Source: Phyllobacteriaceae bacterium
GTDB lineage: Bacteria; Pseudomonadota; Alphaproteobacteria; Rhizobiales; Rhizobiaceae
Length of the DNA stretch: 64,000 nt
Direction: 5' to 3'
Assembly (NCBI GenBank): GCA_002708825.1
Contig: PAPF01000043.1
Coordinates: 108,809 to 172,808 of the forward strand
Each line of letters begins with the position of its first letter. Position 1 is the first letter of the stretch. The notes beneath the pieces were generated by a model. It worked only from the letters and a program-made list of their open reading frames with translations, did not search any database and was not told the origin of the DNA. Shown one piece after another: positions 3,320 to 53,720 of this stretch. The position numbers were made by a program, and so were the translations under genes.

Positions 3320-3348
3320 GCTACAGGCCGGTGACAGGGCCGTGACCC
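3320..3348 (-). promoter_or_regulatory. Pho-box-like triple repeat upstream of olsB
   Basis: On the minus strand the segment reads GGGTCAC-GGCC-CTGTCAC-CGGC-CTGTAGC: three 7-base units with an exact 11-base period. The PhoB target in alphaproteobacteria is CTGTCAT-N4-CTGTCAT. The middle unit matches 6/7 and the flanking units 4/7 each. It sits 52-80 bases before the olsB start codon, where a promoter operator would be expected. The match is by eye only. Confidence 0.5.
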
Positions 3349-3396
3349 TGCCCTTTGCCGCCATGGGGCGAACGCGCAGCTTGCAGGGGGCGTCAG

Positions 3397-5652
3397 TCAG
3401 GCCGCGGCGTCCGTGGCGTCGAGCACGGCCGCCGTCAGCCGGTCCGGGTCCAGGGGCTTGGTCAGGAAACCGTTTGCGCCGTGGGCGAGGGCGCGCGCGC
3501 GTGTCTCTTCCTGGCCATCGGCGGTGAGCACGAGGACCGGTCTTTCCGTCCATCCGCCTGCCTGTTCCATGGCCCGGATGCGGTCGATGGCGTCCAGTCC
3601 GTCGAGCACGGGCATGTGCAGGTCCATCAGTACGAGATCGAAAAGGGTGCCGTTGTCCTGCGCATACAGTTCCACCGCCTTTCCACCGTCCTGGGCAAGC
3701 GTGACCGAGTGTCCGGCCCGCTCCAGCGCGGCGCGCGCCAGCATGGCATTGATCGGGTTGTCCTCGGCAAGAAGGATCGACAGGCCTTGCCCGCCGGTTT
3801 TCCCCGCTGCCCGCGCCGGCCTTGGCGGCAAGGCCTCCGCCATCCCGCCGGACGGTTCCCCGCCGAGAATGCGCAGCAGCGTTGTCCCGCGCACCGGGCG
3901 GGCAAGGAAGTTGAGATAGCCGAAGGCGCGCAACGCGCCGAGCCTGCCGCGGTCGCCCGGTGCGATCAGGATGACCGGGTTGGCGCTGCTCAAGCCGGCC
4001 GCGCGCAGCCGGTCCAGGGTGTCGCCCTGCTCCAGGTCGGCGTCGATCAGCATGGCGTCGAACCGGCCGGGAGCGCTTGCGGCGGCCTGTTCCGGCCTGT
4101 CGCAGAGCATTGCGTGCGCGCCTTCCGATGTCAGCGTGGCCGCGATGGCTTCGGCTTCCGTCCGGTTCTTCAGGAGCAGGAGGTAGCGGCGTCCGGCCAG
4201 CTTCGGCTCACGGGCCGCCGGGCAGGCCTCGCATGGCAGCATCATGGTGAAGACCGATCCCGCGCCGGGTTCGCTTTCGACGCAAACCGTTCCGCCCATG
4301 GCGGTCACCAGCCGTCGCGAGATGGCAAGGCCGAGGCCGGCGCCGCCATGGCGGTGGGTCGGTGAGCCGTCGGCCTGCTCGAAGTCGCCAAAGATCCGTT
4401 CGCGGTCTTCGGGCTTCAGGCCGGGACCCGTGTCGATCACGTCGAAGGCGACGGCCGGCCCCTCAGGCCCCGCCGTCATCGAAACAGAAAGCCGGACGCC
4501 TCCGGTCTCGGTGAACTTGACGGCATTGCCCGCCAGGTTCAGCAGCACCTGGCGCAGCTTTCCCGGATCGGTGACGATGTTTGACGGCACGCGCGGATCG
4601 ACATGCGCGGCAATGGCGATGCCCTTCGCATAGGCGCGCGACGCTAGGAGTTCGACCACGCTGTCGATCGTTTCGCGCAGCGGAACCGGCTGCGGTGCGA
4701 TCTCGATGCGCCCGGCCTCGATCTTTGAAAAGTCGAGCAGGTCCTCGATCAGCAGCAGGAGGGCGTCCGCCGATGTCGACACCGAATCGACATAGGTTTT
4801 CTGCTCCGGCGTCAGGCCCGTGTCGGCCAGGAGACGCGCCATGCCGACGATGCCGTTCATCGGCGTGCGGATTTCATGGCTGACCGTGGCCAGGAAGCGT
4901 GATTTCGCCTGGCTCGCGGCCTCCGCGCGCTCGCGCGCCTCGATCAGGTCGTGCTCGGCTTTCTTGCGCGCCGTGATGTCGCGGGCGATGGCGCGATGGG
5001 AAACGTCACCGGTCGCGCTGTCCCGGATCGAATGCTCGATCCAGGAAAACCAGCGCACGCCCAAATCCGTCTGCACGGCGACGTCGCAGGATGTCAGGCT
5101 GCCCGCTCCGGCGAGATCCGGGTCCGGCGCGTTGTCGAGCGCGATGCCCAGATCGGACAGCCGCAGGCCGCGAATGCTGCGCATGTCCATGTTCAGAAGG
5201 CGGGCAAGGGCGTCGTTTGCGTAGACGATGCGCCCGGTCCGGTCACGATGGACCACGAGGTCGCCCAGGGCGTCGATCAGGCCGAGAAAGCGTTCCTCGC
5301 TTTCCTGCAATTCCCACATGCGGTCGGCAAGGGCTTCGTAATCGGCGTCCTGCGCTTCCGCCGTCGTCGCCATGGCCGAAAGCTGGCGCCGTTCGCGGCG
5401 GTCGAGCATGATCCCGGTCGCCGAACATGCAAGGCCGAAGCCGGTCAGAAGCATCGTCACAAGGCCGGGCGAGCCGCCGAGCCCCGCAAGTCCTGCCAGC
5501 ATGAGCGTCACCAGCCCGGCTGCCGTCACCAGCTTGCCGGCGCCGGTTTCCTCCGGCAGCCGCCGCCGCCGTCCGGACGCGTCATGGCCCGCCGTCCGGG
5601 CCGGGCCGGGCGGCATGGCATGCTTGGGCAGGCGGGCTTCGTCCTTTTCCAT
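3397..5652 (-). CDS. Membrane-bound hybrid sensor histidine kinase with PAS and receiver domains
   Basis: A 751-aa two-component kinase with unknown signal. Domain order: basic N-terminus, two adjacent hydrophobic segments (about residues 40-60 and 62-83), a PAS domain (about 115-235), HisKA with the phospho-accepting His in SHEIRTPMNG (about residue 260), HATPase_c with DTGPGL and GGAGLGLAIS, a degenerate receiver-like segment (about 480-590, phospho-Asp not evident), and a C-terminal receiver with LVLMDLHMPVLDG. The double-receiver layout resembles BarA/ArcB-type phosphorelay kinases, but no Hpt domain is seen. No response regulator is adjacent, so its partner is elsewhere. Start ATG at 5652. 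Confidence 0.88.
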   Translation of the reverse strand: MEKDEARLPKHAMPPGPARTAGHDASGRRRRLPEETGAGKLVTAAGLVTLMLAGLAGLGGSPGLVTMLLTGFGLACSATGIMLDRRERRQLSAMATTAEAQDADYEALADRMWELQESEERFLGLIDALGDLVVHRDRTGRIVYANDALARLLNMDMRSIRGLRLSDLGIALDNAPDPDLAGAGSLTSCDVAVQTDLGVRWFSWIEHSIRDSATGDVSHRAIARDITARKKAEHDLIEARERAEAASQAKSRFLATVSHEIRTPMNGIVGMARLLADTGLTPEQKTYVDSVSTSADALLLLIEDLLDFSKIEAGRIEIAPQPVPLRETIDSVVELLASRAYAKGIAIAAHVDPRVPSNIVTDPGKLRQVLLNLAGNAVKFTETGGVRLSVSMTAGPEGPAVAFDVIDTGPGLKPEDRERIFGDFEQADGSPTHRHGGAGLGLAISRRLVTAMGGTVCVESEPGAGSVFTMMLPCEACPAAREPKLAGRRYLLLLKNRTEAEAIAATLTSEGAHAMLCDRPEQAAASAPGRFDAMLIDADLEQGDTLDRLRAAGLSSANPVILIAPGDRGRLGALRAFGYLNFLARPVRGTTLLRILGGEPSGGMAEALPPRPARAAGKTGGQGLSILLAEDNPINAMLARAALERAGHSVTLAQDGGKAVELYAQDNGTLFDLVLMDLHMPVLDGLDAIDRIRAMEQAGGWTERPVLVLTADGQEETRARALAHGANGFLTKPLDPDRLTAAVLDATDAAA

Positions 5653-5735
5653 GGCACGACAATGCCATGGACTTGCTTAGGGAATCGTTCGGTCGCTCAC
5701 CGGCTTTTTAAGGATCTGCGCCGGAATGGGCCGCC

Positions 5736-6731
5736 TCAGGCGGACATGTCGACGGCGACGCGGCCGCGCACCTTGCCCTCGACGATCGCTTTTGCCGTGT
5801 CGATGATGCCGTCGAAACCGATCGTTTCGGAAAGCGCCTCGAGCTTTGCCATGTCGAGGTCGCTTGCCAGGCGCTGCCAGGCTTCCAGCCGTCTTTCCCG
5901 TGGCGCCATCACCGAATCGACGCCGAGCAGCGCCACGCCGCGCAGGATGAAGGGCGCGACTGTCGCCGGCAGGTCCATGCCCTGCGCCAGCCCGCAGGCC
6001 GCCACCGCGCCGCCGTAGCGGGTCTGCGCCAGCACATTGGCCAGCGTGTGCGAACCGGCCACGTCGATCCCGGCGGCGAACCGTTCCTTGCCGAGCGGCC
6101 GTCCGGGCTCGGAGAATTCCGCCCTGTCGATAATGTCGGAAGCGCCCAGATCCTTCAGGAACGAGGATTCCTCCGGCCGGCCTGTCGAGGCGATGACCTC
6201 GTGCCCGAGCTTCGAAAGTACGGAAATGGCGACAGTGCCGACGCCGCCGGCGGCCCCGGTCACCACCACGGGGCCGTCGCCGGGCCTGATCCCGTAGCGC
6301 TCCAGCGCCATGACGCAGAGCATGGCCGTGTATCCGGCCGTGCCGATGGCCATCGCCTGCAGGGCCGACATGCCCGCGGGCAGCGGCACCAGCCAGTCGC
6401 CTTTCACACGGGCCTTGCCGGCATAGGCGCCCCAATGGGTCTCGCCCGTGCCCCAGCCATTGAGGATGACCTTGTCGCCTTCCTGCCACTGGGGATTCGA
6501 CGAGGCCGTGACGGTCCCCGCGAAGTCGATGCCGGGCACCATGGGCCAGTGGCGCACCACCGGCGCCTTGCCGGTAATTGCCAGCCCGTCCTTGTAGTTC
6601 ACCGTGGTTGCCTCGACCGCGACGGTGACATCGCCTTCCATCAGGTCGTCTTCGGAAAGTTCCGTGACCGAAACGGACTGCTTCTTGTCCTCGCCGCGCG
6701 AGATCAGGATGGCCTTGAAGGTCGAACGCAT
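5736..6731 (-). CDS. Acrylyl-CoA reductase-like MDR oxidoreductase (AcuI/YhdH family)
   Basis: Zinc-free medium-chain dehydrogenase/reductase, 331 aa, matching the AcuI/YhdH family length. Members reduce acryloyl-CoA to propionyl-CoA with NADPH. Visible are [12 protein letters not shown] near residue 45, the PGIDFAGTV motif and the nucleotide-binding [14 protein letters not shown] near residue 150. The frame stays open further upstream into lspA, but the ATG at 6731 has GGGAG eight bases before it and the expected N-terminus MRSTFKAIL. Exact substrate is inferred from family only; no DMSP lyase or propionate genes are adjacent. Confidence 0.85.
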
Positions 6732-6787
6732 GATGATGTCTCCCGGTCTGTCTGAGATGGTGATGTGGCCCCGCCCCGGCCTGCGCG

Positions 6788-7279
6788 TCAATCGTCTCCG
6801 GTCCTGGCAGCACGCCGCCATGACAGGACTTCCTCCAGCAGCACCAGCCCCGCGCCGATCGTGATCCACGTGTCGGCGAGGTTGAACACCGCGAAGGACC
6901 AGGCCGGCGTGTGGAAGAGGAAATAGTCGACCACGTAGCCGAGCAGGACGCGGTCGATCAGGTTGCCGATGGCGCCGGCGATGATCAGCGCGAAGCCCAG
7001 ATGGGCCAGCCGCTGTTCGGGTCCGGACATCCAGGCCAGCCAGAGAACGAAACATGAAATGACCAGCGACAGGGCAATCAGTCCTCCTGCCCCGAAATCG
7101 GCCAGCAGCGAAAAGGCGATGCCGGTATTGTGCGTGCGGAACAGCGCGAAGAAGGGAAGCAGGTCGATCTGCTCGTGATAGCCCATGCCGGTCTCGACCA
7201 GGTGCTTGATCCACTGGTCGAGCGCGATCAGGCCGGCAGCCAGCAGGCTGTGCCGGCGGACGGTGCGAGACAGCTTCAT
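6788..7279 (-). CDS. lspA: Lipoprotein signal peptidase (signal peptidase II)
   Basis: Inner-membrane aspartic protease that removes the signal peptide from diacylglyceryl-prolipoproteins. It has 163 aa with four predicted membrane helices. Both catalytic aspartates are in place: GNLIDR (about residue 111) and FNLADTWI (about 132). The start overlaps the stop of the upstream RNA methyltransferase gene by ATGA, indicating translational coupling in a run of minus-strand genes from the rRNA methyltransferase to here. Confidence 0.96.
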
Positions 7280-8127
7280 GCGCCGGCCTCCAGCGAAAGT
7301 GCGCTCCTTCGGATCTCGTAGAGCATCACGCCCGTCGCCACCGCCAGGTTGAGCGAATCGGCGCGCCCGGCCTGCGGAATGCGCAGGAGCGTGTCGCAGC
7401 TTTCCGCGATGGCGTCGGGCAGGCCATGGCTTTCATTGCCCATGACCAGCAGCACCGGCTTGCCGGAAAAATCCACCGTCCGGTAGTCGACTGATCCCTT
7501 GAGATGCGTTCCCGCCACCAGGCCCGGCCATCCGGCCCGCCAGGCGAGGAATTGCTCCTGCGTGGCGCGGGCCACCGGCACGGCGAAGATGGACCCCATG
7601 GTGGCCCGCACGGTTTCCGGCGAAAACGGATCCGTGGTCTCTCCGACCAGGATGACGCCCTTCGCGCCCACCGCGTCGGCGGTGCGCAGGATGGTGCCCA
7701 GGTTGCCCGGATCGCGCACCCGGTCGAGCGCGATCCACACATCGTCGCCGGCGGGCCGGATGTCCGCGAGGCGCGCATGGCTCTGCTCGAACACGCCCGC
7801 CACCATCTGCGGATTGTCCTTGCGGCTGATCGCGGCCAGCACCTTGTCGCTGACCTCGAGCACGTCGCCGCCTGCCGCAATCGTTCGCGCGGCCAGCGCC
7901 TGGATGTCGGCCCTAGCCTTGACCGACTTGGAACAGACAAGCATCCGGATCGTCCAGCCCGCGTCCAGCGCGTCGATGACCAGTTTCTGGCCCTCCGCCA
8001 GGAAGCTGTGGCTCTGGTCGCGGTACTTCTTGAGCGCCAGCGCCTTGATGTCCTTGACCAAGGGATTGGACAGGCTGGTGATTTCCTTGACGCGTCCGGG
8101 AACACCGACAGCTGTTTGCCGGCTCAT
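7276..8127 (-). CDS. TrmH/SpoU-family RNA 2'-O-methyltransferase
   Basis: SPOUT-class SAM-dependent methyltransferase acting on tRNA or rRNA; the target nucleotide is not predictable. It has 283 aa with an N-terminal SpoU substrate-binding domain ([13 protein letters not shown] near residue 18) and the C-terminal catalytic knot: [20 protein letters not shown], then [10 protein letters not shown] and [22 protein letters not shown]. The ATG at 8127 overlaps the upstream stop codon as ATGA; an in-frame ATG at 8139 is possible. The downstream end overlaps lspA the same way. Confidence 0.9.
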
Positions 8128-9227
8128 GATGCCACCCATCGGCTGAAAAGCGAGGTGGAGAGCGCGCGCTGTGCCGAGGCTTCGCGGATCACCAGTTCGC
8201 CGGACTCGACGCGGCCGCCCATGCCCGCGAAGGTGTCGCGCATGAGCGCATGGATGGCGAAGAAGGAGGCACGGATGGAATAGGCGGTCAGCACCACCGC
8301 CAGAGGTTTCGGCGTCAGGATCTGGCGGCACAGGTCCGCCATCACGGGCAGGTTGTCGAACAGTTGCCAGACCTCGCCCTTGGGACCGCGGCCATAGGCT
8401 GGCGGGTCGAGCAGGATGATGTCGTGGCCGTTGCCGCGGCGCGCCTCGCGCTCGACGAACTTCATCGCGTCCTCGCAGATCCAGCGGATCGGCTTGTCGG
8501 AAAGCCGCGCCATTTCCTGGTTTTCCCGCGCCCAGCCGATTGCCTTCTTCGACGCGTCGACATGGGTCACCTCCGCGCCGACCCGCGCGGCCACCAGCGA
8601 GGCAAGGCCGGTGTAGCCGAACAGGTTGAGCACCTTGACCGGCCGTCCCGCGTTCCGGATCAGGCTCTCCATGTGCTGCCAGTGCGTCGCCTGTTCGGGA
8701 AACACGCCGACATGGCGGAACGAGGTGAAGCGGCCGAGATAGTCGATGCCGTCATGCTTCATGGGCCACGTCTCGCCCAGCGCTTCGTGCGGAAAGCGCC
8801 AGCGGCCCATGCCTTCCTCGTCCGTATCGCCGGTAAAGACCGCATCGGCCTTGTTCCATTCGCCCGCGTCAAGGGCCGGCCGCCAGATCGCCTGCCCTTC
8901 GGGCCGGTCGATCAGGTAAGGCCCGTAACGCTCCAGCTTGCGGCCGTCGCCACTGTCGATGAGGGCATAGTTCTCGCCGGGCGGCACTTCGAGGATGACA
9001 GGCAGGCGTTCGGCCGGAAGCGGCCCGCCGCGCCGTGCCACGCGGACGGGCTCTGCCGTGTTTCCCTCGGGCCGCGCCTCCTTCGGCTTCGCGCGGGAAC
9101 CGCCGGTATTTTCCGCGGCATGGCGAGCCTGCCCGGACGGTCCGCCAGGTCTGCCGGAAGGGCCGGGCCGCCTGTTGCGGGTCCCGCGCTTGCCGCTGGC
9201 CTGTGCCGGTTTGCCCTTGTCCTTCAA
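8124..9227 (-). CDS. Class I SAM-dependent rRNA cytosine methyltransferase (RlmI/YccW-like)
   Basis: Predicted Rossmann-fold methyltransferase of the RlmI-like family (23S rRNA m5C). The recognisable part starts at LPVILEVPPGENYALIDSG and includes the SAM motif LNLFGYTGLASL and the catalytic-type DIILLDPPAYGRGPKGE. The first 60-70 residues are Pro/Arg/Gly-rich and low in complexity. The frame is open well upstream without a convincing ATG. I placed the start at TTG 9227, which has GAGGCGG just before it; this start is uncertain. It overlaps the trmH-like gene by 4 bases. Confidence 0.82.
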   Translation of the reverse strand: MKDKGKPAQASGKRGTRNRRPGPSGRPGGPSGQARHAAENTGGSRAKPKEARPEGNTAEPVRVARRGGPLPAERLPVILEVPPGENYALIDSGDGRKLERYGPYLIDRPEGQAIWRPALDAGEWNKADAVFTGDTDEEGMGRWRFPHEALGETWPMKHDGIDYLGRFTSFRHVGVFPEQATHWQHMESLIRNAGRPVKVLNLFGYTGLASLVAARVGAEVTHVDASKKAIGWARENQEMARLSDKPIRWICEDAMKFVEREARRGNGHDIILLDPPAYGRGPKGEVWQLFDNLPVMADLCRQILTPKPLAVVLTAYSIRASFFAIHALMRDTFAGMGGRVESGELVIREASAQRALSTSLFSRWVAS

Positions 9228-9362
9228 CGTGCCGCCTCGAAGCTTGATGGTTGCGCCGCTTCTGCCACAGGCCCGCCATCCTGTCCATCGGCCCCGGCTT
9301 GACCGGGGGAGCAGGCCGCGCCACCCTGCAGGTGTTCGCCGAATCCAAGCGGAAAGCCTGTC

Positions 9363-9458
9363 ATGCCGGAGCCCTATCGCGAAAATGCCGCCGCCGTCAC
9401 CTTCTGGGGCCTGATGGTCTGCCTTGCGCTTGCCATCATCGTCCATGTGATCGGCTGA
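9363..9458 (+). CDS. Possible 31-aa single-span membrane peptide
   Basis: Short open frame (starting MPEPYRENAA) with one hydrophobic segment from about residue 13 to 30 (FWGLMVCLALAIIVHVIG). GGAAAG lies about ten bases before the ATG. It fills the gap between two minus-strand genes and is transcribed oppositely. The composition is typical of tiny membrane proteins, but length and coding evidence are weak; no family recognised. Confidence 0.35.
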   Translation: MPEPYRENAAAVTFWGLMVCLALAIIVHVIG

Positions 9459-9466
9459 ACGCGGTT

Positions 9467-10435
9467 TCAGGCCGGACGCTGCTGCTCCCAGACGGCAATT
9501 GCCGCGGCGAGGTCTTCCAGCGCCGCGCCGACCGACTTGAAAACGGTCACGGTCCTGTCGTCGGTCCGTCCGGGACAAGCGCCGCGCGCAAGCTCGAAGA
9601 GGTCGCCCGCGATCCGGTCTTCGCTCAGCGCGCCGGAGCCCATCGCCTGCACGATGTCGCCGCCCTCCTTCAGCGCACCGCCGCGCGTATCGACGAACAC
9701 CGTGCCGCGCCGCATCAGGTCGTCGTCGCTTTCGCGCATGGCAGGGGTGAAGGCGCCGACGAGATCGACATGGGTACCGTCCTTCACGAGCGCGCCCCTG
9801 ACCAGCGGGACCGTGGAGAGCGTGCAACAGGAAATGATGTCGGCCTCCTGCTGTGCCTGGTCGAGGTCGCTGGTAAACGAAGCCTCGAACCCGGCATCGC
9901 TGAGCCGTTCTGCCAGCGCCTCGCCATTGGCGGCCGACCTGTTCCAGACGGTGACGCGCCGGATCGGCCGCTGGCTGGCATGGGCTTGCACCAGTTCGCC
10001 GGCCAGCGTGCCCGCGCCGCAGACGAGGAGATGGCTGGCATCCTTGCGCGCCAGGAAGGATGCGGCAAGCGCCGAGGCCGCCGCCGTGCGCCGCGCGGTC
10101 AGCCGCTGCCCGTCGATGATCGCCTGCGGCGCGCCCGTCCGTCCGTCGAGCAGCAGGTATTGCCCCATCACCGCCGGCAGGGCGCGGCTGTTGTTTTCCG
10201 GACTGACCGTGACGATCTTGATTCCGATATGCCCGCCATCCGATGTGCCGGCTTTCATGAAGTCGTTCCAGGCTGGCATGAGGAGCAGCACGGAATCCGC
10301 GTCGTCGGGTCTTTCGATGGTGTGGTGATGGCGCACAGGCTGCACCATGCCCTCGCGAAAGGCGGTTCCGAGCGCCTCTACGAGACGTGGATAGTCAAGC
10401 GCGGAATCGACCGCTTCCGGACCGATGACTTTCAT
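9467..10435 (-). CDS. Ornithine cyclodeaminase / mu-crystallin family protein
   Basis: NAD(P)-dependent enzyme family that includes ornithine cyclodeaminase, alanine dehydrogenase and ketimine reductases; the substrate cannot be assigned here. It has 322 aa. The N-terminal part contains the substrate-site GGHIGIKIVTVSPEN (about residue 68) and GAPQAIIDGQRLTARRTAA; the Rossmann part contains LVCGAGTLAG (about residue 138) and DLVGAFTPAMRE. The ATG at 10435 with AAGGGCGAAG upstream was chosen over the longer open frame. It is 10 bases downstream of lapA and probably co-transcribed with it. Confidence 0.85.
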   Translation of the reverse strand: MKVIGPEAVDSALDYPRLVEALGTAFREGMVQPVRHHHTIERPDDADSVLLLMPAWNDFMKAGTSDGGHIGIKIVTVSPENNSRALPAVMGQYLLLDGRTGAPQAIIDGQRLTARRTAAASALAASFLARKDASHLLVCGAGTLAGELVQAHASQRPIRRVTVWNRSAANGEALAERLSDAGFEASFTSDLDQAQQEADIISCCTLSTVPLVRGALVKDGTHVDLVGAFTPAMRESDDDLMRRGTVFVDTRGGALKEGGDIVQAMGSGALSEDRIAGDLFELARGACPGRTDDRTVTVFKSVGAALEDLAAAIAVWEQQRPA

Positions 10436-10445
10436 GGCTTCGCCC

Positions 10446-10775
10446 TTACTGGCGCGGTGCGGCAAGCGCGGTGGAGGAAGACGTGGCCTTCGATGTCTCT
10501 GCCGCACGCAATTCCTTGACCTCGCGGCCGCGCTGGCGGGCCTGCTTGCGGTAGCGGCCCTGCTTCCACCATGTCGCGGCAGAGCCCAGCACCATGCCGG
10601 TGACGAGCGCCAGGAACAGGTAGACGAAGAGCGGCCACTGCACCGTCAGCACGGGATTGCCGGGATTGAACGGATCGAGGGTGAAGGGCACGGCGCCGCG
10701 GTTGGCAACGGCCAGCGCGATCAGAACGATGGCGACCGGAACCAGAACGAGAACGGTGACGAGACGGTTGAGCAT
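10446..10775 (-). CDS. lapA: LapA-domain (DUF1049) inner-membrane protein
   Basis: Small 109-aa protein with two predicted membrane helices (about residues 5-25 and 48-68) and a basic cytoplasmic tail with a low-complexity Ser/Thr/Ala end. In E. coli the LapA/LapB pair is tied to control of LPS synthesis through LpxC turnover; the role here is inferred by family. It lies between ihfB and the cyclodeaminase-like gene on the minus strand, the usual rhizobial position downstream of ihfB. Confidence 0.8.
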   Translation of the reverse strand: MLNRLVTVLVLVPVAIVLIALAVANRGAVPFTLDPFNPGNPVLTVQWPLFVYLFLALVTGMVLGSAATWWKQGRYRKQARQRGREVKELRAAETSKATSSSTALAAPRQ

Positions 10776-10832
10776 GGCGATCGTGGTCCCTGGAATTGCA
10801 AACCGGACGCCCTGACGCGCCCCGGCCTGCTT

Positions 10833-11114
10833 TTAGTCCGCGTTCAGGCGCTCGCGCAACTCCTTGCCGGTCTTGAAGAACGGCACCCACTTTTCCTCCA
10901 CGTGGACCGTGTCGCCGGTACGCGGGTTGCGCCCGGCGCGCGCCGGGCGGTTCTTGACGGAAAAGGCGCCAAAGCCGCGCAGTTCGACGCGGTTGCCCTT
11001 CGAAAGCGCGTCGGTGATCTCGTCGAAGATCGCGTTGACGATGTTCTCCACGTCGCGCTGGAAGAGATGCGGGTTCTTGGTGGCAATGATCTGCACGAGT
11101 TCCGATTTGATCAT
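10833..11114 (-). CDS. ihfB: Integration host factor beta subunit
   Basis: DNA-bending nucleoid protein, partner of IhfA. It has 93 aa and starts [10 protein letters not shown]; the beta-arm segment [22 protein letters not shown] near residue 45 is diagnostic. The ATG at 11114 has AGGGGA five bases upstream; the longer open frame is rejected. It follows sppA by 53 bases on the same strand. IHF would also assist the sigma-54 promoters read by the nearby rpoN product and site-specific recombination by elements such as the island at the right end (inference). Confidence 0.96.
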
Positions 11115-11167
11115 GTCGTCCCCTTTTTGCGCGCGTGCCCCGTCGGAGCGGCAGCCTTCTTGAAATA

Positions 11168-12136: not shown

Positions 12137-12348
12137 GGTCGTCGCTCCCTCGGAAGGCCTGCAGCGGCGAGTCCTAGCGCGATTGCATGGCGGATGCCAT
12201 AGTCTTCCCGGCGGATGGACCAACGCCTGCTTTCATCGAAAAATAACCACAATGGCTTGCAATGCGGAAACGGTTGGGTCAATCGCTGGCTGTAACGCGC
12301 CGGCGTGTATCGCCATCCGGACCGGCCCGAAGGAGAAAGACGCTGTCA

Positions 12349-13053: not shown

Positions 13054-13057
13054 CGCC

Positions 13058-13603: not shown

Positions 13604-13659
13604 ACCGGGAACAAGGGGACCGGGCAGGATGGAACGCGCGCGTGGGCTTCTTTGAGCGA

Positions 13660-42888: not shown

Positions 42889-42912
42889 GGCCTTGCCTCC
42901 TTTGTTCAGCGA

Positions 42913-43647: not shown

Positions 43648-43750
43648 GTGCGTTTCCTTCCCGTGGCAGACGGCGGACTGCCGTGATGGTCATGTTGGTA
43701 CTGTAGCGCCGCCGCCGGCCCGCCTGCCAATCCGAAGACAAGCCATGGCA

Positions 43751-43763
43751 TAAGCTTTTGCTA
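43751..43763. promoter_or_regulatory. Candidate LysR-type operator (T-N11-A)
   Basis: TAAGCTTTTGCTA fits the LysR-family T-N11-A pattern with inner inverted AGC/GCT arms. It is 38 bases before the regulator start and about 104 before galB, in the only AT-rich patch of the 153-base divergent gap. Likely effector would be a pathway intermediate (inference). Confidence 0.4.
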
Positions 43764-43800
43764 TAGGGTATGATCCAGCGCAAATGCCGGGGGCTGCGCC

Positions 43801-45030: not shown

Positions 45031-45138
45031 ATGTGTATCTATGCAGAAAATCAATACTGCTCTTGGCGTTCCAATGTGCGCCCCGGCGGCCTTGCTGCTA
45101 TGTTTCCGGCAATGAAGGAAGATTTCGAGGGAAACGCC

Positions 45139-46077
45139 ATGCCTGAACGCCCGGGCCTGCCGGATATGACGCGCCGGGGCGCCATCGCGCTGATCGGTTT
45201 CGGCGAGGCCGCGCAGGCCTTCACCGCCGGCTGGCAGTCTGTGGTCGACGGCTTCGTGCCGCGCGCCTTCGACATCAAGACCGCCGATACGGCTGCGCGC
45301 GCCGCCAAGCAGGCCGACTATGACCGCTGCGGTGCCGATGGCCACGACACGCTTTCCGAAGCCCTCGATGGCGCGGATGCGGTCTTTTCCCTCGTCACCG
45401 CCGACCAGGCCAACGCTGCGGCCGAAGCAGCCGCTGCCTGCCTGCCGCGCGGGGCCTTGTTCTTCGACTGCAATTCCTGTTCGCCCGGCGCCAAGCGCCG
45501 CTCCCAGGCGGCCATCGAGGCCGCGGGCGGGCGCTATGTCGATACCGCCGTCATGGCGCCGGTCCATCCCGCTCTGCACCGCACGCCGCTGCTGGTCGCC
45601 GGTTCCCATGTCGATGATGCGCTGGCGCTCCTTGCGTCGCTGGACATGAAGGCGCAGCCTGTCGAGGGCGGCGTCGGCGCCGCCTCCGCCATCAAGATGA
45701 CCCGCTCGGTCATGATCAAGGGGCTGGAGGCGCTCGTTCTCGAATGTGTCCTGACCGGCCGCGCCAATGGCGTGGAGGATGCGGTGCTCGATTCGCTCGA
45801 TGCATCGTTCCCGGGATTCGACTGGCGCAAGCGCGCGGCCTACATGATGGAGCGCGTGATGACGCATGGCATCCGCCGGGCCGCCGAGATGCGCGAGGTG
45901 GCGCTGACCGTGGACGAGGCCGGATTGCAGGGCCGCATGGCGCGCGCCACCGCCGAATGGCAGGACGAGGTCGGCGCGATGAAGCTCGATGCCGCGTCTA
46001 TCGGTGACGATGCCGGTGCGCTGGCCGACGCCATCCTGGAACGCTTTGCCGGATCCGAGCAGAAGAAGCGCGCCTGA
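45139..46077 (+). CDS. NAD(P)-binding dehydrogenase-like protein with DUF1932 domain
   Basis: 312-aa protein with an N-terminal 6-phosphogluconate-dehydrogenase-type Rossmann domain (AIALIGFGEAAQAFTAGW) and a C-terminal helical DUF1932 domain (SAIKMTRSVMIKGLEALVLE; Lys of IKM is the usual catalytic position in beta-hydroxyacid dehydrogenases). The substrate is unknown. It sits between the regulator and ligA in the plus operon, 29 bases before ligA. The start is the ATG at 45139 with GAGGG upstream; the frame is open to 45031 but without a ribosome site. None of the known protocatechuate 4,5-pathway steps lacks an enzyme here, so its role is open. Confidence 0.78.
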   Translation: MPERPGLPDMTRRGAIALIGFGEAAQAFTAGWQSVVDGFVPRAFDIKTADTAARAAKQADYDRCGADGHDTLSEALDGADAVFSLVTADQANAAAEAAAACLPRGALFFDCNSCSPGAKRRSQAAIEAAGGRYVDTAVMAPVHPALHRTPLLVAGSHVDDALALLASLDMKAQPVEGGVGAASAIKMTRSVMIKGLEALVLECVLTGRANGVEDAVLDSLDASFPGFDWRKRAAYMMERVMTHGIRRAAEMREVALTVDEAGLQGRMARATAEWQDEVGAMKLDAASIGDDAGALADAILERFAGSEQKKRA

Positions 46078-46106
46078 AGGCGCGGGAAAGACGAGGGAAG
46101 AGGCCC

Positions 46107-47353
<1,247 letters not shown>

Positions 47354-47365
47354 GGGAGCAGTTTC

Positions 47366-48307
47366 ATGCGGATCTGTGTCGCCGGCGCCTATGGCGCATT
47401 CGGCATCAAGCATCTCGATGCGCTGGCCAATATCGACGGCGTGCAGGTCACGTCCGTCATGGGCCCGACGAAGGAGAAGATCGAGGCGCTGGCGCGCGAG
47501 CGTGGCATCGGTCATGCAGCCACCACGCTGGAGGAGTGCATCGCGCGCGAGGACGTGGACGCTGTCATCCTGTCGACCCCGACCCAGCTTCACGCGAAAC
47601 AGGCCATTGCCTGCATGGAGGCCGGCAAGCATGTGCTCGTCGAAATTCCCATGGCCGACAGCCTGGCCGATTCCATCGCCGTGGTGAACAAGCAGAAGGA
47701 AACCGGCCTCGTGGCCATGGCCGGCCAGGTGCGCCGCTTCAACCCGTCCCACCAGTGGATCCACAACAGGATCAAGGCCGGCGAACTGAAGGTCCAGCAG
47801 ATGGACGTCCAGACCTATTTCTTCCGCCGGTCCAACATGAATGCCAAGGGCGAGCCGCGCTCATGGACCGACCACCTGCTCTGGCACCATGCCTGCCACA
47901 CGGTCGACTTGTTCCAGTACCAGACCGGCGAGACCTGCTCGCAGGCCTTTGGCCTGCAGGGCCCGATCCATCCGGAACTCGGCATCGCCATGGACATGTC
48001 CATCGGCATGAAGGTGCCGTCGGGCGCCATCTGCACGCTGTCGCTGTCCTTCAACAATGACGGGCCGCTCGGCACCTTCTTCCGCTACATCTGCGACAAC
48101 GGCACCTATATCGCCCGCTATGACGATCTCTATGACGGCTACGACAAGCCCGTCGACCTGTCGGGCGTCGCCGTCTCCAACAACGGCATCGAACTGATCG
48201 ACCGGGAATTCGTCTCCGCGATCCGTGAAGGCCGCGAGCCCAACGGCGCGGTCGGCCAGGTGCTCGGCGCCATGGAAACGCTGGACAAGATCGAGAAGTG
48301 CTTCTGA
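47366..48307 (+). CDS. ligC: 4-carboxy-2-hydroxymuconate-6-semialdehyde dehydrogenase
   Basis: Gfo/Idh/MocA-family NADP-dependent enzyme, 313 aa, oxidising the hemiacetal of the ring-cleavage product to 2-pyrone-4,6-dicarboxylate. Marks: N-terminal ICVAGAYGAFGIKHLDAL, STPTQLHAKQAIACMEAGKH, and the LigC-specific MNAKGEPRSWTDHLLWHHA and FFRYICDNGTYIARYDD. It is the only LigC in the window and must serve both dioxygenases. Last gene of the plus operon. Confidence 0.94.
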   Translation: MRICVAGAYGAFGIKHLDALANIDGVQVTSVMGPTKEKIEALARERGIGHAATTLEECIAREDVDAVILSTPTQLHAKQAIACMEAGKHVLVEIPMADSLADSIAVVNKQKETGLVAMAGQVRRFNPSHQWIHNRIKAGELKVQQMDVQTYFFRRSNMNAKGEPRSWTDHLLWHHACHTVDLFQYQTGETCSQAFGLQGPIHPELGIAMDMSIGMKVPSGAICTLSLSFNNDGPLGTFFRYICDNGTYIARYDDLYDGYDKPVDLSGVAVSNNGIELIDREFVSAIREGREPNGAVGQVLGAMETLDKIEKCF

Positions 48308-48337
48308 CGGTTCCGGCCGGACAGCAGCAGTTCCGCA

Positions 48338-48366
48338 GGGGCGCGCGACCGGCCGTGCGCCCCTTT
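48338..48366 (+). terminator. Probable terminator after ligC
   Basis: GGGGCGC (48338-48344) pairs with GCGCCCC (48357-48363) across a 12-base loop, followed by TTT. It starts 31 bases after the ligC stop and just before the convergent acetamidase gene. Confidence 0.6.
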
Positions 48367-48372
48367 GGCGTT

Positions 48373-49317
48373 TCAGGAGAGCACGGATCGCGGGAAGTGC
48401 AGGCTGACCACCATGTTGGGCGCGTTGACGATCTCGCTGATCCGCAGGTCCGCGCAGACGGAGCACAGCATGTAGGCATCCTCCGGGGCCATCCCGTGCT
48501 CGTGCGCGATGAGGTCGATCATCCGTGAGACGGCTTCCCGCGATGCCTGCATCAGGTCCGGGCCGATACCCGTCGTCACATCGTGGCCCTCCCGACCGAT
48601 ATCGTCCGCCGCCGGGCCCGGCGTGCGAAAGCGGGGCGACGGCGGTGCCTTGCCCTTGATGACGTCGAACGTCACGACCGCTTCCATCGCGCTTTCGATG
48701 GCCGTCCCGCAGACCTCTCCGTCGCCCTGGGCCGCATGGGTATCACCAATGGAAAACAGCGCGCCCTCCACTTCCACCGGCAGATGGAGCGTCGCTCCGG
48801 CGGTCAGGTGCCGGATGTCCATGTTGCCGCCCACATTGCGCGGCGGGATCACCGGATGGTTTCCGGCCGCGTGCGGGGCGACGCCGAGCGTGCCGGCAAA
48901 AGGGCGGACGGGAACCCGGGCAAGACCGGAAAACAGCGCATCCTGCCCGCCCGACGGATCGTAGTGCCAAAGATGCAGGCGCGGATCGGGGAACTGGTCG
49001 GCCAGCAGGCCGAAACCCGGGATGAGCGCCGTCCAGCCGAAACCGGACGGCCTGAAGGCCTCGATGGTGATCTTCAGCGTGTCGCCGGGGCTTGCCCCGT
49101 CAATGAAGACCGGCCCGGTCACCGGATTGACCTTTTCCGGCGGCATGGTGGTGATGTCATTCGCGGTGCTGTCCGGATGATAGTGCCCGCAACCTGCGTC
49201 GAGACATTCGAAGGCCACGGTTTGGCCCGGCGCCACCGTCATGACGGGGCTGTTGTCCCGGTTCCAGCCGAAATGGTGATGGCGGGAATGGATGGTATGC
49301 GCGTGGAGTGGCGTCAT
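48373..49317 (-). CDS. Acetamidase/formamidase family protein
   Basis: 314-aa member of the FmdA_AmdA family, hydrolysing short amides such as formamide or acetamide to the acid and ammonia. Marks: HFGWNRDNSPVMTVAPGQTV near the N-terminus, a Gly/Pro-rich NPVTGPVFIDGASPGDTLKI (about residue 65), and GDTHAAQGDGEVCGTAIE (about 210). The ATG at 49317 has AGGAGGAGG directly upstream and is preferred over the longer open frame. Not part of the aromatic pathway as far as known. Confidence 0.88.
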   Translation of the reverse strand: MTPLHAHTIHSRHHHFGWNRDNSPVMTVAPGQTVAFECLDAGCGHYHPDSTANDITTMPPEKVNPVTGPVFIDGASPGDTLKITIEAFRPSGFGWTALIPGFGLLADQFPDPRLHLWHYDPSGGQDALFSGLARVPVRPFAGTLGVAPHAAGNHPVIPPRNVGGNMDIRHLTAGATLHLPVEVEGALFSIGDTHAAQGDGEVCGTAIESAMEAVVTFDVIKGKAPPSPRFRTPGPAADDIGREGHDVTTGIGPDLMQASREAVSRMIDLIAHEHGMAPEDAYMLCSVCADLRISEIVNAPNMVVSLHFPRSVLS

Positions 49318-49630
49318 GGCAGCCTCCTCCTCTGCGAGACTGGCAGCATGGAGGCCCGTGTTCAAGGTCTGACCGTCCGGAAAAAAACGTCTGGATTTTA
49401 GACAGATTGTTAACAAGCGCACGCTAAATTTCGCATCGAAGACAGTTTCCTGTGGCATGATGCCTTTCACTTCACGGCCTTGGCGCCGGATGATTTTCCA
49501 GATCGGTGGCGATTGATCCGGTAGCGGCCCGGGCCGGTTTCCGGATGCCAGGTGGTGGCCGTCCGATCCCCCTGCTTTGCTGCTGCTGCGGCGCTCGACG
49601 AACGGTTCTGCAAGACTGGACACGGCTGTG
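49318..49630. other. Divergent intergenic region, acetamidase / GGDEF gene
   Basis: About 313 bases between divergent starts. The part 49380-49450 is AT-rich and contains GTTAACAAG-like sequence, suitable for promoters, but no convincing -35/-10 pair or known operator was found. A TGGCATGATGCC stretch near 49453 only partly resembles a sigma-54 site. Confidence 0.5.
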
Positions 49631-50713
49631 ATGAATGCAAATCCGAAGGAATGCGAAGGCGAGGAAGTGGCGGGCCATCCGCTCAGGGCCGGGTCCGGTA
49701 TGGAAGAACTGGATCGCATCGCCGCCATTGGCGAGGCCGCGATGGCAAAGGCGAGGCAACACCTCACCGCACCGCTGCCGCCAATTTACGATGTCTGGTA
49801 CAATTACGTGGAAGGCTCCAACGAGGAGATCCGCCACCGCGTGGACAGCCTGATCGCCGGATCGTCGGTGGTCAGCACCTATGACCTCCTGCAGATCCAC
49901 AACGAATTCCTGGCCGCCGACATGGCGAGGCAAGGCGAACTGGATGAGGCCAAGGCGCAGCTTGATACCGAGATCAACGACATCCTCAACATGATCCGCC
50001 TGCATGTCCTGTCGAGCGACAGGTACTGCGACGACCTGTCGGCGAAATCCTCCAGCATTCACGAAAGCAGCAGCCTGGACCTGATCCGGGAAACGATCGC
50101 CGGTCTCATCAGCGAAAACGAGAAGATGCGCGACGACACGATGGCCCTCTCGCGCGGACTTGAACAATCGCGTTCCCAGATCGAGAAGCTGCACGATGCC
50201 CTGCAGGAATCCCAGCGCAACGAGATGACCGATCCGCTGACCGGGCTGGCAAACCGTCGCGCCTTCCAGATCTGGCTTGCCCGCGAGATGGAGGAGGCCG
50301 CCAAGACGAACCGGCCCTTGAGTCTTGTCTTTGCCGACATCGATCACTTCAAGCAGATCAATGACACCTTCGGTCATGTGATCGGCGACGAGGTGCTGAA
50401 ATATTTCGGCCGCCTCCTCAAAACCCAGACCGACGATTGCGACATCGCCTCGCGCTATGGCGGCGAGGAATTCGCCATCCTGCTGCCGGGCGCGAAGTCG
50501 GGCGAGGCATGGAAGAAGGCCAACCAGATCCGGGATCTCCTGGCGAAGACGAAGCTGGTCGTCACCAAGACGAATGTTCCCATCGGCACGGTGACCGCGT
50601 CCTTCGGCGTTGCCGAATTCGCCTCCAACGACGACTACGTGTCCTTCATCGAGCGGGCGGATCGTCAGCTTTACATCGCCAAGCAGAACGGGCGAAACCG
50701 CGTCGAGGCCTGA
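49631..50713 (+). CDS. Diguanylate cyclase (GGDEF domain protein)
   Basis: 360-aa predicted c-di-GMP synthase. C-terminal GGDEF domain (about residues 195-355) with DPLTGLANRRAF, FADIDHFKQINDTFGHVIGDE and an intact active site RYGGEEFAILLP. The RxxD product-inhibition site expected just before it reads DDCD, so the arginine is missing and feedback inhibition may be absent. The N-terminal 140 residues (YDVWYNYVEGSNEEIRHRVD) are a cytoplasmic helical region seen in related rhizobial proteins; a coiled coil (about 150-190) links the parts. No membrane span. Start ATG 49631 has a weak ribosome site. Confidence 0.9.
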   Translation: MNANPKECEGEEVAGHPLRAGSGMEELDRIAAIGEAAMAKARQHLTAPLPPIYDVWYNYVEGSNEEIRHRVDSLIAGSSVVSTYDLLQIHNEFLAADMARQGELDEAKAQLDTEINDILNMIRLHVLSSDRYCDDLSAKSSSIHESSSLDLIRETIAGLISENEKMRDDTMALSRGLEQSRSQIEKLHDALQESQRNEMTDPLTGLANRRAFQIWLAREMEEAAKTNRPLSLVFADIDHFKQINDTFGHVIGDEVLKYFGRLLKTQTDDCDIASRYGGEEFAILLPGAKSGEAWKKANQIRDLLAKTKLVVTKTNVPIGTVTASFGVAEFASNDDYVSFIERADRQLYIAKQNGRNRVEA

Positions 50714-50724
50714 CCGGCGGGCAA

Positions 50725-51744
50725 TCAGGCCCGCAAGGGCACCAGGTTGCGCGCGAACTGGTCCGTGCAGGCCGACCAGGAGAATTGCAGCGCGAAATCG
50801 CGGCAAGCCTGGCGGTCGATGGCCAGCGCGTCGAGCGCGGCCTGCCGCAGGTCATCCGACAGCACTCCGCAGGAGGCCCCGCCCAGGATGTCGGCCGGCC
50901 CGTGCACGGGATAGGCGGCAACCGGAGTGCCGCAGGCAAGCGCTTCCAGCACCACCATGCCGAAGGTTTCGAAACGGGACGGCATGACGAAGACGTCCGC
51001 GGCCGAGAGATGCCTGGCGATGTCCTCGCCCGTGCGGTATCCGAGAAAATGGACATCCGGCCAGGCGGCCTTGTAGGCCTTCAGGCTCGGCCCGCCGCCC
51101 ACCACCAACTTCGAGCCCGGCAGGTCGAGGCGGAAGAAGTCCTCCAGGCTCTTTTCCTTCGCGACGCGGCCCAGATACATGAAGACCGGGCGCGGCAAAT
51201 TCAGGAAATCCGGGTCAAAGCCCGGCACGCCCCGCCACGGCCGGAACAGCGTGGTGTCGACGCCCCGGCCCCATTGCGTGATGTTGCGGTAGCCGCGCCC
51301 GGTCAGTTCGTCTTCCAGGCTCTTCGTCTGCACCATCATGCGCGCGCCGGCATTGTGGAACCAGCGCTGGAACAGGTGCGCATGATCCGGGTTCATGCCG
51401 GTCCGGTGCCGGAGATAGTCGCCGTAGCGGGTGTGGAAGGACGTGGTGAACCGCCAGCCCTCCTTGCGGCAGATACGCCTCATGGCAAGCCCGATGGGGC
51501 CTTCGACCGGGATGTGGATGGCATCGGGCCGGAATTCCTCGACCAATGCGCGCAGGCGGCGCCCGGGAAACAGCGCCAGCCGGACTTCCGGGTAGCCGGG
51601 CGCGCCCAGCGAAGGGAACCGGTCCGGGCCCGTCACCATGACCGCATGCCCCTCGGCGGCAAGGTGCTGGCGCGTCGTCTCGAAGACACGCACGACGCCG
51701 TTGATCTGCGGATGCCAGGCATCGCTGGCGATCATGATGCGCAT
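50725..51744 (-). CDS. GT4 glycosyltransferase, probable glycolipid (SqdX-like) synthase
   Basis: 339-aa retaining glycosyltransferase of GT4/GT-B fold. N-terminal DAWHPQINGVVRVFE and HIPVEGPIGLAMRR (acceptor side), SFHTRYGDYLR, and the donor-site E-x7-E in ETFGMVVLEALACGTPVAAY. Divergent from sqdB with a shared 105-base promoter region, so it probably transfers sulfoquinovose (or a related sugar) from a UDP-sugar to diacylglycerol. A glucuronosyl or glucosyl diacylglycerol synthase is the alternative. No SqdD/SqdC-type genes are nearby. Confidence 0.8.
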   Translation of the reverse strand: MRIMIASDAWHPQINGVVRVFETTRQHLAAEGHAVMVTGPDRFPSLGAPGYPEVRLALFPGRRLRALVEEFRPDAIHIPVEGPIGLAMRRICRKEGWRFTTSFHTRYGDYLRHRTGMNPDHAHLFQRWFHNAGARMMVQTKSLEDELTGRGYRNITQWGRGVDTTLFRPWRGVPGFDPDFLNLPRPVFMYLGRVAKEKSLEDFFRLDLPGSKLVVGGGPSLKAYKAAWPDVHFLGYRTGEDIARHLSAADVFVMPSRFETFGMVVLEALACGTPVAAYPVHGPADILGGASCGVLSDDLRQAALDALAIDRQACRDFALQFSWSACTDQFARNLVPLRA

Positions 51745-51757
51745 GGCATGTCTCCCG

Positions 51758-51775
51758 CTGTCGCACGGATTTCAT
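51758..51775 (+). promoter_or_regulatory. Pho-box-like repeat upstream of sqdB
   Basis: CTGTCGC-ACGG-ATTTCAT: two 7-base units with the 11-base period of a PhoB site, 5/7 matches in each to CTGTCAT. It lies 75 bases before sqdB and 14 bases from the start of the divergent glycosyltransferase gene. Confidence 0.5.
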
Positions 51776-51849
51776 GTGTTTGCGCTCTTGTGCACCGCGA
51801 AAGGCGGCCGCGTGGCCGATTCGGCACTTGCACCATCGGGAGAGGGAAC

Positions 51850-53007
51850 ATGAAAGTCCTCATTCTGGGCGGCGACGGGTTTTGCGGCTGGCCCACATCC
51901 TTGCATTTCGCGGCCCGTGGCCATGAGGTCACGATTGCCGACAATCTGGTCCGCCGCGAAACCGACCGCGAACTGGGCTGTGGAAGCCTGACGCCGATTG
52001 CACCCATCGGGGAACGTCTTTCCGCCTGGAGGGCGACGGGGAATCGCCCGGTCAACGATATCCGGCTGGATGTGGCACGCGACTATGACGGTCTTGTTAC
52101 GCTGCTGAAGCGTCTGAGCCCCGAGGTGATCGTGCACTTTGCCGAACAGCGCGCCGCGCCCTATTCGATGAAGTCGCCGCGCCACAAGCGTTACACGGTG
52201 GACAACAACGTGTCGGCCACCCACGGCGTGCTCTGCGCCATGGTCGAGGCGGCGCCGGATGCCCATCTGGTGCATCTTGGCACCATGGGCGTCTATGGCT
52301 ACGGAAAGACCAGGGGCATGGAAATCCCTGAAGGCTATATCGGGGCGACGCTGCGTTCGGGCGGCCAGAGCGCCGACGTCGACATTCTCTACCCGACCGA
52401 TCCGGGCAGCGTCTATCACATGACGAAATCGCTGGACCAGATCCTGTTCCAGTTCTACGCGAAGAACGACCGCCTGGCGATCACTGACCTGCACCAGGGC
52501 ATTGTCTGGGGCACCAACACGCCCGAGACGGATCTTGTCGACACGCTGGTCAACCGGTTCGACTATGACGGCGACTACGGCACGGTGCTCAACCGTTTCC
52601 TGATGCAGGCGGCCATCGGCCATCCGCTGACGGTTCACGGTACCGGTGGCCAGACCCGCGCCTTCATCCATGTCCGCGATACCGTCCGCTGCATCGAACT
52701 GGCCGCCCTCAATCCGCCGCGGCGCGGCGAGCGGGTGCGGATCATGAACCAGATGACGGAAACGCACCGCGTCCGCGATCTTGCCGCGATGATCTCGGGC
52801 ATGACCGGCGTGCCGGTCCAGGCCATGGAGAACCCGCGCAAGGAGGCGCCCGAGAACGACCTGCGCGTGGCCAATGACACGCTGGTCAATCTCGGCCTCA
52901 AGCCGACGCGCCTGTCCGACGGGCTGATGCAGGAGGTCTTCGACGTGGCCATGCGCCATGCCAACCGCTGCGACCGGTCGAGGATCGTCGCCACCGCCCG
53001 CTGGTAG
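51850..53007 (+). CDS. sqdB: UDP-sulfoquinovose synthase
   Basis: Makes UDP-sulfoquinovose from UDP-glucose and sulfite, the head-group donor for the sulfolipid SQDG. It has 385 aa, SDR-extended fold. The SqdB form of the NAD motif, ILGGDGFCGWPTSLH, is at the N-terminus; VHFAEQRAAPYSM, VHLGTMGVYGYGKTRG and the catalytic Tyr-x3-Lys in VYHMTKSLDQ follow. GGGAGAGGG lies eight bases before the ATG at 51850. The frame is open far upstream through other genes but without coding support. Confidence 0.95.
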   Translation: MKVLILGGDGFCGWPTSLHFAARGHEVTIADNLVRRETDRELGCGSLTPIAPIGERLSAWRATGNRPVNDIRLDVARDYDGLVTLLKRLSPEVIVHFAEQRAAPYSMKSPRHKRYTVDNNVSATHGVLCAMVEAAPDAHLVHLGTMGVYGYGKTRGMEIPEGYIGATLRSGGQSADVDILYPTDPGSVYHMTKSLDQILFQFYAKNDRLAITDLHQGIVWGTNTPETDLVDTLVNRFDYDGDYGTVLNRFLMQAAIGHPLTVHGTGGQTRAFIHVRDTVRCIELAALNPPRRGERVRIMNQMTETHRVRDLAAMISGMTGVPVQAMENPRKEAPENDLRVANDTLVNLGLKPTRLSDGLMQEVFDVAMRHANRCDRSRIVATARW

Positions 53008-53106
53008 CGCCGCCGCGGGTTTCGCTCCCGGGCTTGCCGGCCAGGGCGCGCCCGTCTACCTGTTTTCGATCAGGCGCCATCCGGCGCGCGAATGTGAGGG
53101 CTGGCC

Positions 53107-53667
53107 ATGCAGGGCAGGCTGGTAGTGATTGTCGGCCCGAGCGGTTCGGGCAAGGATACGCTGATCGGCTGGTTGCGCCGCCATGTCGGCGAAGACGCCG
53201 GCATCCTCTTCGTGCGGCGTGTCATCACCCGGCCTGCCGGTGCCGGCGGCGAGGACCACGAGGCCGCATCCCCTGCCCGGTTCGAGGCGATGGAGCGCGA
53301 CGGTGCCTTCTGTGTCACCTGGCAGGCCCACGGCCTCTCCTATGGCATCCCGGCCAGCGCGCTTGAGCATGTCCGCGCGGGCGGCACGGCGGTCGTCAAC
53401 GGGTCGCGAAAGGCCCTGCCGGCGATCCGCGCGGCATTTGACAATGCACTTGTCATTCTTCTCACCGTCGATCCGGCCGAACTTCGCCGACGCCTTGGCG
53501 AGCGCGGCCGCGAGAGCGAGGCAGAGATCCGGGAACGCATGGAGCGCGCGCGGCTCGAGTTCGCCCGCACCGGCGCCATGGTCGAGGTCGACAACAGCGG
53601 CCCCGTGGAAGAGGCCGGGCGGCGGGTCCTTGCGCTGATGGAAGAAGACGTTTCCGGGCAGCACTGA
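53107..53667 (+). CDS. phnN: Ribose 1,5-bisphosphate phosphokinase PhnN
   Basis: Guanylate-kinase-like enzyme, 186 aa, making PRPP from ribose 1,5-bisphosphate in phosphonate breakdown. P-loop GPSGSGKDT at the N-terminus (Asp in place of the Ser/Thr seen in GMP kinases), FVRRVITRPA, and FCVTWQAHGLSYGIP, all PhnN-typical. The rest of the phn C-P lyase operon is absent here; it stands between sqdB and plcP, consistent with co-expression under phosphate limitation. Confidence 0.9.
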   Translation: MQGRLVVIVGPSGSGKDTLIGWLRRHVGEDAGILFVRRVITRPAGAGGEDHEAASPARFEAMERDGAFCVTWQAHGLSYGIPASALEHVRAGGTAVVNGSRKALPAIRAAFDNALVILLTVDPAELRRRLGERGRESEAEIRERMERARLEFARTGAMVEVDNSGPVEEAGRRVLALMEEDVSGQH

Positions 53668-53702
53668 GCCCCGGTCACAGCCTGGCGCGTGGCGCCGGTC
53701 AA

Positions 53703-53720
53703 CCGTCACATTGCTGCAAC
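53703..53720 (+). promoter_or_regulatory. Weak Pho-box-like repeat upstream of plcP
   Basis: CCGTCAC-ATTG-CTGCAAC shows the 11-base spacing of a PhoB site with 5/7 and 4/7 matches to CTGTCAT. It is 50 bases before the plcP start codon in the 102-base gap after phnN. The match is weak taken alone. Confidence 0.3.

Follow-up and report, generated by a model that had tools for sequence, protein, structure and literature searches.

An sqdB-paired glycosyltransferase and Pho boxes upstream of lipid-remodelling genes in a Phyllobacteriaceae bacterium

Which lipid genes of a Phyllobacteriaceae bacterium are switched on when phosphate is low, and what is made by the glycosyltransferase encoded beside its sqdB? 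Both questions are raised by a stretch of 64,000 nucleotides of contig PAPF01000043.1 (the window), part of one of the 44 contigs of a 4.7-Mb genome. The window carries olsB, plcP-btaAB, and sqdB with a gene for a GT4 glycosyltransferase. The original prediction, read by eye, placed all of them in one regulon of the phosphate regulator PhoB, arguing that the repeated coincidence of a Pho-box-like motif with gene function was stronger evidence than any single site. The three sites are present (Table 1). We believe, with a probability of about 0.8, that the promoters of olsB and plcP-btaAB, whose Pho boxes are also found in related genera, would be switched on by PhoB at low phosphate, and that the site upstream of sqdB is likely a chance match or limited to the genus. 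The regulon claim now comes with controls, which indicate how far each of the three sites can be trusted. Pho control of olsB and plcP-btaAB is mostly known biology; the less ordinary part of the locus is the GT4 partner of SqdB.

Pho boxes upstream of olsB and plcP-btaAB

A Pho box consists of two 7-mers resembling CTGTCAT at an 11-bp pitch. Sites were scored with an 18-bp matrix trained on 26 pstS promoters from related genomes, each contributing its best site; training left out L213, L214, and the pstS promoters of the window's own genome (G000) and of the sister species (G001). By this matrix the own pst locus carries a Pho box, and the own-genome positives scored 23.3 (pstS), 19.6 (phnC), and 16.5 (phnG). 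PhoB is present in the genome (338 bits; cut-off 296). The site upstream of olsB scored 16.96, the best in the window, followed by those upstream of sqdB (11.36) and plcP (9.25). In a 400-kb sample of the own genome (approximately 800,000 positions), the olsB score was not reached at all, and the per-position p was 2.1e-5 for the sqdB site and 8.5e-5 for the plcP site. Upstream regions served as a further background, with the longest open reading frames (ORFs) taken as genes, a crude method that gave 157 intergenic stretches and 251 long ORFs with 200 nt each. None of the 157 stretches reached 9.25, the lowest of the three scores. All three sites are locally unusual.

The boxes upstream of olsB and plcP recurred in relatives. 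We counted a score of at least 11 upstream of orthologues as a box, in 30 genomes per gene, namely the best matches for which DNA was available, so that distant relatives are under-sampled (61 genomes were searched, with matches to olsB in 51, plcP in 46, btaA in 34, and pstS in 52). There was a box upstream of olsB in 22 of 29 relatives (23/30 with the own genome) and upstream of plcP in 20 of 29 (20/30 with the own genome), compared to means of 0.45 and 0.65 genomes for matrices with permuted columns, which gave between 0.45 and 0.87 for every gene set. The corresponding number for pstS, mostly the training set, was 26/30, own genome included. A further sample of 21 plcP loci, two of them from genomes already used and several sharing genera, had a box in 12, or in 11 of 19 without those two genomes. 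In one set of plcP rows, those with a best score below 5 were left out and 28 of 30 were kept.

The spacing to a -10-like TA also fits olsB. The dinucleotide was found at offset 10 after the box in 24/28 pstS, 12/24 olsB, and 10/19 btaA promoters, and the olsB promoter of the window has it there. Based on the matrix score, the recurrence in relatives, and this spacing, we predict that olsB is under Pho control.

Whether btaA had its own box depended on what was upstream. Overall, 18 of 29 relatives had a box upstream of btaA (18/30 with the own genome; permuted-matrix mean of 0.57; one locus, L161, with only approximately 98 nt upstream, was counted as a miss). In cases where btaA followed plcP or plcP and a GT4 gene, there was a box in 0 of 9, including the window, in which the best score upstream of btaA was -0.6. 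Where btaA was elsewhere, there was a box in 18 of 21 (Fisher p of 1.5e-5, not from a planned test because the split was spotted after scoring). Such a split would follow if transcription is driven by the box and btaAB share the promoter of plcP. In addition, three genomes from two genera keep the box and the -10-like TCTAAG in alignment in the gap between phnN and plcP, and the remainder of the gap drifts. The matrix score, the recurrence in relatives, and the btaA control together argue for Pho control of plcP-btaAB.

Several observations weigh against Pho control of these genes. The plcP box of the window ranks only 15th in its 64 kb. Among plcP promoters generally, the TA is at offset 12 to 13 in 9/35 (it is at 12 in the window) and at offset 10 in 1/35. 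The PhoR-like kinase of the genome scored 306.9 bits, under the cut-off of 334.2. Counted by mismatches, the window has 12 matches, which is no enrichment over the expected 9.9, and 12 was reached in 30 of 100 shuffles; plain mismatch scans, at chance level here, were dropped as evidence. Genome-wide, a strict consensus with up to 3 mismatches was found at 289 places, versus 90 for the reversed pattern. The window count and these 289 places would fit chance motif matches in a GC-rich genome, with no promoter under PhoB. We consider this very improbable given the ranks by the trained matrix, the boxes that recur in relatives, the comparison of btaA loci, and the spacing.

Two further observations concern Pho boxes. 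A GANTC site (the CcrM methylation motif) follows the Pho box at a distance of exactly 2 nt in 31 of the 47 distinct plcP promoters (L259-L288, L305-L347; several sharing genera), with A (22), G (4), C (3), or T (2) as the middle base. At this distance it was present in 1/29 olsB, 0/19 btaA, and 0/28 pstS promoters, and the window has AAATC (53723-53727). A cell-cycle input to phospholipid breakdown is possible; PhoB-dependent GANTC methylation has been reported at a Caulobacter promoter (PMC5172544). Separately, a contig of the own genome (C5, L118) has Pho boxes at 4287-4304 (+) and 4866-4883 (-) that scored 19.7 and 22.0, among the strongest of those scored in the genome. The minus-strand box is 62 nt before an unnamed ORF of 162 aa, possibly a further gene of the Pho regulon.

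The site upstream of sqdB

The site upstream of sqdB was not conserved. Only 1 of 16 other genomes with the divergent GT4-sqdB module had a box in the direction of sqdB, and none of the 16 had one in the direction of the GT4 gene. For sqdB loci overall, there was a box in 8 of 27 (counting the window; one genome contributes two of the 27). There is also no TA within 18 nt downstream of the site in the window. Read toward the GT4 gene, the site scored -0.72 and was rejected.

It could still be that all three sites are working Pho boxes and that the one upstream of sqdB was gained at the level of the genus. Its score was reached by 0/157 background intergenic stretches and by 1 of 251 regions upstream of long ORFs, whatever their overlap, and in the sister species a degenerate version (8.6) is kept at the same distance. 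Nonetheless, since only 1/16 related sqdB-GT4 promoters have a box, we do not count the site as one and consider a working box doubtful; from sequence comparison, it is likely a chance match or a young site of the genus. The original prediction therefore stands for olsB and plcP-btaAB, as does its argument from the coincidence of motif and function for these two sites, and is not supported for the third, which is above the intergenic background and lacks conservation.

The glycosyltransferase paired with SqdB

SqdB of the window is a predicted UDP-sulfoquinovose synthase. It matches SQD1 over its full length and has the catalytic GTMG and YHxxK motifs, and its nearest relatives are SqdBs from Aureimonas, Aurantimonas, and Rhizobiaceae records. 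Its identity to SqdBs whose genes adjoin an SqdD-like GT8-type gene is 61-65%, supporting the predicted activity. The protein is below the NF041015 cut-off (316 versus 575 bits). That cut-off does not discriminate here; it was passed by 0/61 genomes (own included), even by SqdBs adjoining the SqdD-like gene, and we therefore rejected the possibility that the missing match marks a different family.

The GT4 enzyme appears to be an offshoot of the Agt group. In a tree whose rows include no characterised Agt sequence, it belongs to a clade of 8 rows (support 100/99) on a 28-row side shared with plcP-linked Agt-type GT4s. A 100/100 branch splits this clade from the sqdB-adjacent GT4s of cyanobacteria, actinobacteria, Bacillota, and others. 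SqdX in cyanobacteria and SqdD in alphaproteobacteria are sulfolipid synthases, and the tree rejects the GT4 as an SqdX. The gene call of the original prediction, sqdB plus a GT4 enzyme, is thus upheld, with the GT4 being an offshoot of the Agt group rather than of the cyanobacterial SqdX type. An SqdD-like gene was present in G014 (the source of the query), G030, and G019 and had no match in G000, G001, G023, and G025, three of which are among the clade's 17 genomes.

The clade is tied to sqdB. In a survey of 394 genomes of the family, 17 from five genera had a GT4 with at least 63% identity, and the next match was at 52%. All 17 genes adjoin sqdB, which in the 16 relatives is 96-202 bp away and divergent as in the window. 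Nine of the 17 genomes had a second GT4 match, 47-52% identical in the eight listed, and this copy has plcP upstream in G023 (L282), G303 (L346), and G182 (L347). In the own genome, the next matches were 33% and 32% identical and of partial length only.

The clade also differs at a catalytic position. The position of the catalytic Asp (Asp256 of GTcp, the SAR11 enzyme), placed by motif, is Glu259 in the window GT4 and Glu in 18/18 clade rows; it is Asp in 28/28 Agt-type and 3/3 gammaproteobacterial rows. Phe replaces Thr next to the Glu, and FPSxTDTFG becomes MPSRFETFG. The catalytic His104 is retained. The hits of a fold search with a predicted model were all general GT4 enzymes, including MshA and BshA.

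We think there is an even chance that the sqdB-paired clade is a third, separately evolved synthase of sulfoquinovosyldiacylglycerol, an enzyme that would have come from Agt, exchanged Asp for Glu, taken UDP-sulfoquinovose as donor, and replaced SqdD. Alternatively, the GT4 could still be an ordinary Agt that makes glucosyl- or glucuronosyl-diacylglycerol, with its place beside sqdB reflecting only shared use. Its grouping with Agt-type enzymes in the tree and its being the sole close family member in the own genome fit an ordinary Agt, which we nonetheless regard as rather unlikely because the clade GT4s adjoin sqdB in all 17 genomes, because a second match is present in about half of these genomes and is with plcP in three, and because Glu takes the place of an essential Asp throughout. 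The same change lowered the activity of the SAR11 enzyme by more than 90% (PMC8231724).

There are also findings that a sulfolipid synthase does not readily accommodate. Near sqdB in L017, L050, and L084 (with the respective labels Proteobacteria, Gammaproteobacteria, and Salinisphaera), Agt-group GT4s have the usual Asp, and pairing with sqdB therefore does not require the change to Glu. The GT4s beside cyanobacterial sqdB carry Glu, as does MshA, so that Glu alone is no proof of the donor; Asp256 of GTcp corresponds to the sugar-contacting Glu of MshA, and the donors of the SAR11 enzyme named in the accessible part of that report do not include UDP-sulfoquinovose (PMC8231724). The label plcP-linked is itself limited, with plcP within approximately 1.9 kb of only 11/30 Agt-type GT4s; of 43 loci, 22 without a PlcP match were dropped, 19 of them among these 30 GT4-upstream stretches.

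A search by title and opening of the abstract, with subscription journals mostly outside it, found no publication that joins an Agt-group enzyme with sqdB. Species descriptions of Aureimonas in subscription journals are said to list sulfolipid. We found no paper supporting sulfolipid in this genus, and the accessible portions of PMC7179689 and PMC10731981 name none. As a separate observation, GT4, sqdB, and plcP are found together in other proteobacteria (L017 5949-9012 and L084 4439-8152; Gammaproteobacteria by label or genus), apparently by an independent joining.

Gene order, proposed pathway, and comparison with known systems

The features of the locus are listed in Table 1. OlsB passed the NCBIfam equivalog cut-off, and the DUF3419 match of BtaA spans profile positions 5-385 of 385. 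We named plcP by context, as a calcineurin-like phosphoesterase gene with btaAB directly downstream; its activity is predicted.

Table 1. Coordinates of features in the window
Feature	Position	Strand	Basis
olsB, ornithine N-alpha-acyltransferase (first step of ornithine lipid)	2393..3268	-	NF052555 429.5 bits, cut-off 320; PF13444
-10-like TATCGG, 10 nt after olsB box	3304..3309	-	sequence
Pho box of olsB, with three 7-mers spaced by 11 bp (3320-3337 and 3331-3348)	3320..3348	-	matrix score, conservation
GT4 glycosyltransferase, sqdB-paired Agt-group offshoot; candidate sulfoquinovosyldiacylglycerol synthase	50725..51744	-	profile match, tree, synteny
Pho-box-like site between GT4 and sqdB; doubtful, not conserved	51758..51775	+	score 11.36
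sqdB, UDP-sulfoquinovose synthase homologue	51850..53007	+	full-length SQD1 (1qrr) match, E 5.5e-94
phnN, ribose 1,5-bisphosphokinase; apparent C-P lyase operon tail	53107..53667	+	TIGR02322 202 bits, cut-off 156; synteny
Pho box of plcP-btaAB	53703..53720	+	score 9.25; aligned block in G001 and G025
-10-like TCTAAG	53731..53736	+	identical in G001 and G025 alignment rows
plcP, metallophosphoesterase-type phospholipase C homologue	53770..54588	+	PF00149; btaAB downstream as in published type 1
btaA, first enzyme of synthesis of diacylglyceryl trimethylhomoserine (DGTS)	54620..55852	+	PF11899 349.7 bits
btaB, DGTS N-methyltransferase	55854..56513	+	methyltransferase Pfam matches; btaB match beside btaA in 30/30 btaA loci

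The tight packing of sqdB and plcP-btaAB that had been pointed out is not seen in the sister species, and phnN between them had been overlooked. In the sister species the order is GT4, sqdB, phnF to phnM, phnN, plcP, btaA, and btaB, with a carbon-phosphorus (C-P) lyase cluster between sqdB and phnN. In G025, phnK to phnN are ahead of plcP-btaAB, as far as was fetched, and in G002, phnGHI are approximately 2 kb from plcP. Only phnN is left of this cluster in the window. A phn cluster ending in phnM is located on a different contig of the own genome, where a transposase ORF and the end of the contig are no more than 1.4 kb away; phnN was not found beside it. Based on the synteny in the sister species and the position of the own cluster, phnN of the window looks like the severed tail of a C-P lyase operon. 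The phn proteins of the two species diverge (52% identity for PhnD and 83% for PhnK), and the cluster may either have moved or have been replaced. C-P lyase genes are before or near plcP-btaAB in three genera (L247 4815-18802, L250 876-10580, L258 10749-15876), which suggests that the abilities to scavenge phosphate and to save it can be passed on jointly.

An integrase-like ORF, identified by eye at 58595-59908, is approximately 2 kb beyond btaB, and the locus may border a mobile element. A btaA fragment (65% identical) is next to gatB and runs off the end of another contig of the own genome (C14, bases 1-795; L249), as a second copy or contamination.

In the pathway that we propose, PhoR-PhoB would sense low phosphate, OlsB would start ornithine lipid, and PlcP would cut phospholipids to diacylglycerol, which BtaAB, read from the plcP promoter, would convert to DGTS. 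The divergent SqdB-GT4 pair would turn diacylglycerol into an acidic sulfolipid, or into a glycolipid if the GT4 kept the donors of Agt. If the GT4 is a sulfolipid synthase, there would be at least three origins of the final step in making sulfolipid, one of them from a promiscuous glycolipid enzyme of low-phosphate conditions, and the change of one residue would offer a direct handle on the choice of donor.

Much of this has counterparts in known systems. PhoB-dependent ornithine lipid, DGTS, and PlcP have been published for Sinorhizobium meliloti, as the original prediction had noted for the two lipids, and a putative Pho box upstream of olsB was already reported in Agrobacterium tumefaciens (PMC3972451). 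Sulfolipid is reported in S. meliloti and Agt glycolipids in A. tumefaciens (PMC3972451), whereas here sqdB is paired with an Agt-group GT4. Putative Pho boxes are also reported for plcP clusters, and in the type 1 cluster of Phaeobacter MED193, btaA and btaB are downstream of plcP as they are here (PMC4796936); unlike that cluster, the window has phnN before plcP and sqdB and the GT4 gene next door. The GT4 of the window belongs to the group of Agt and GTcp by motifs and tree position and keeps His104, but Agt/GTcp is encoded after plcP and has an essential Asp, whereas the GT4 is encoded beside sqdB and has Glu (PMC8231724). Like SqdX and SqdD, it is encoded next to sqdB. It is split at 100/100 from the cyanobacterial sqdB-adjacent GT4s of the SqdX type, and the SqdD-like protein is of the GT8 type, with no match in the own genome.

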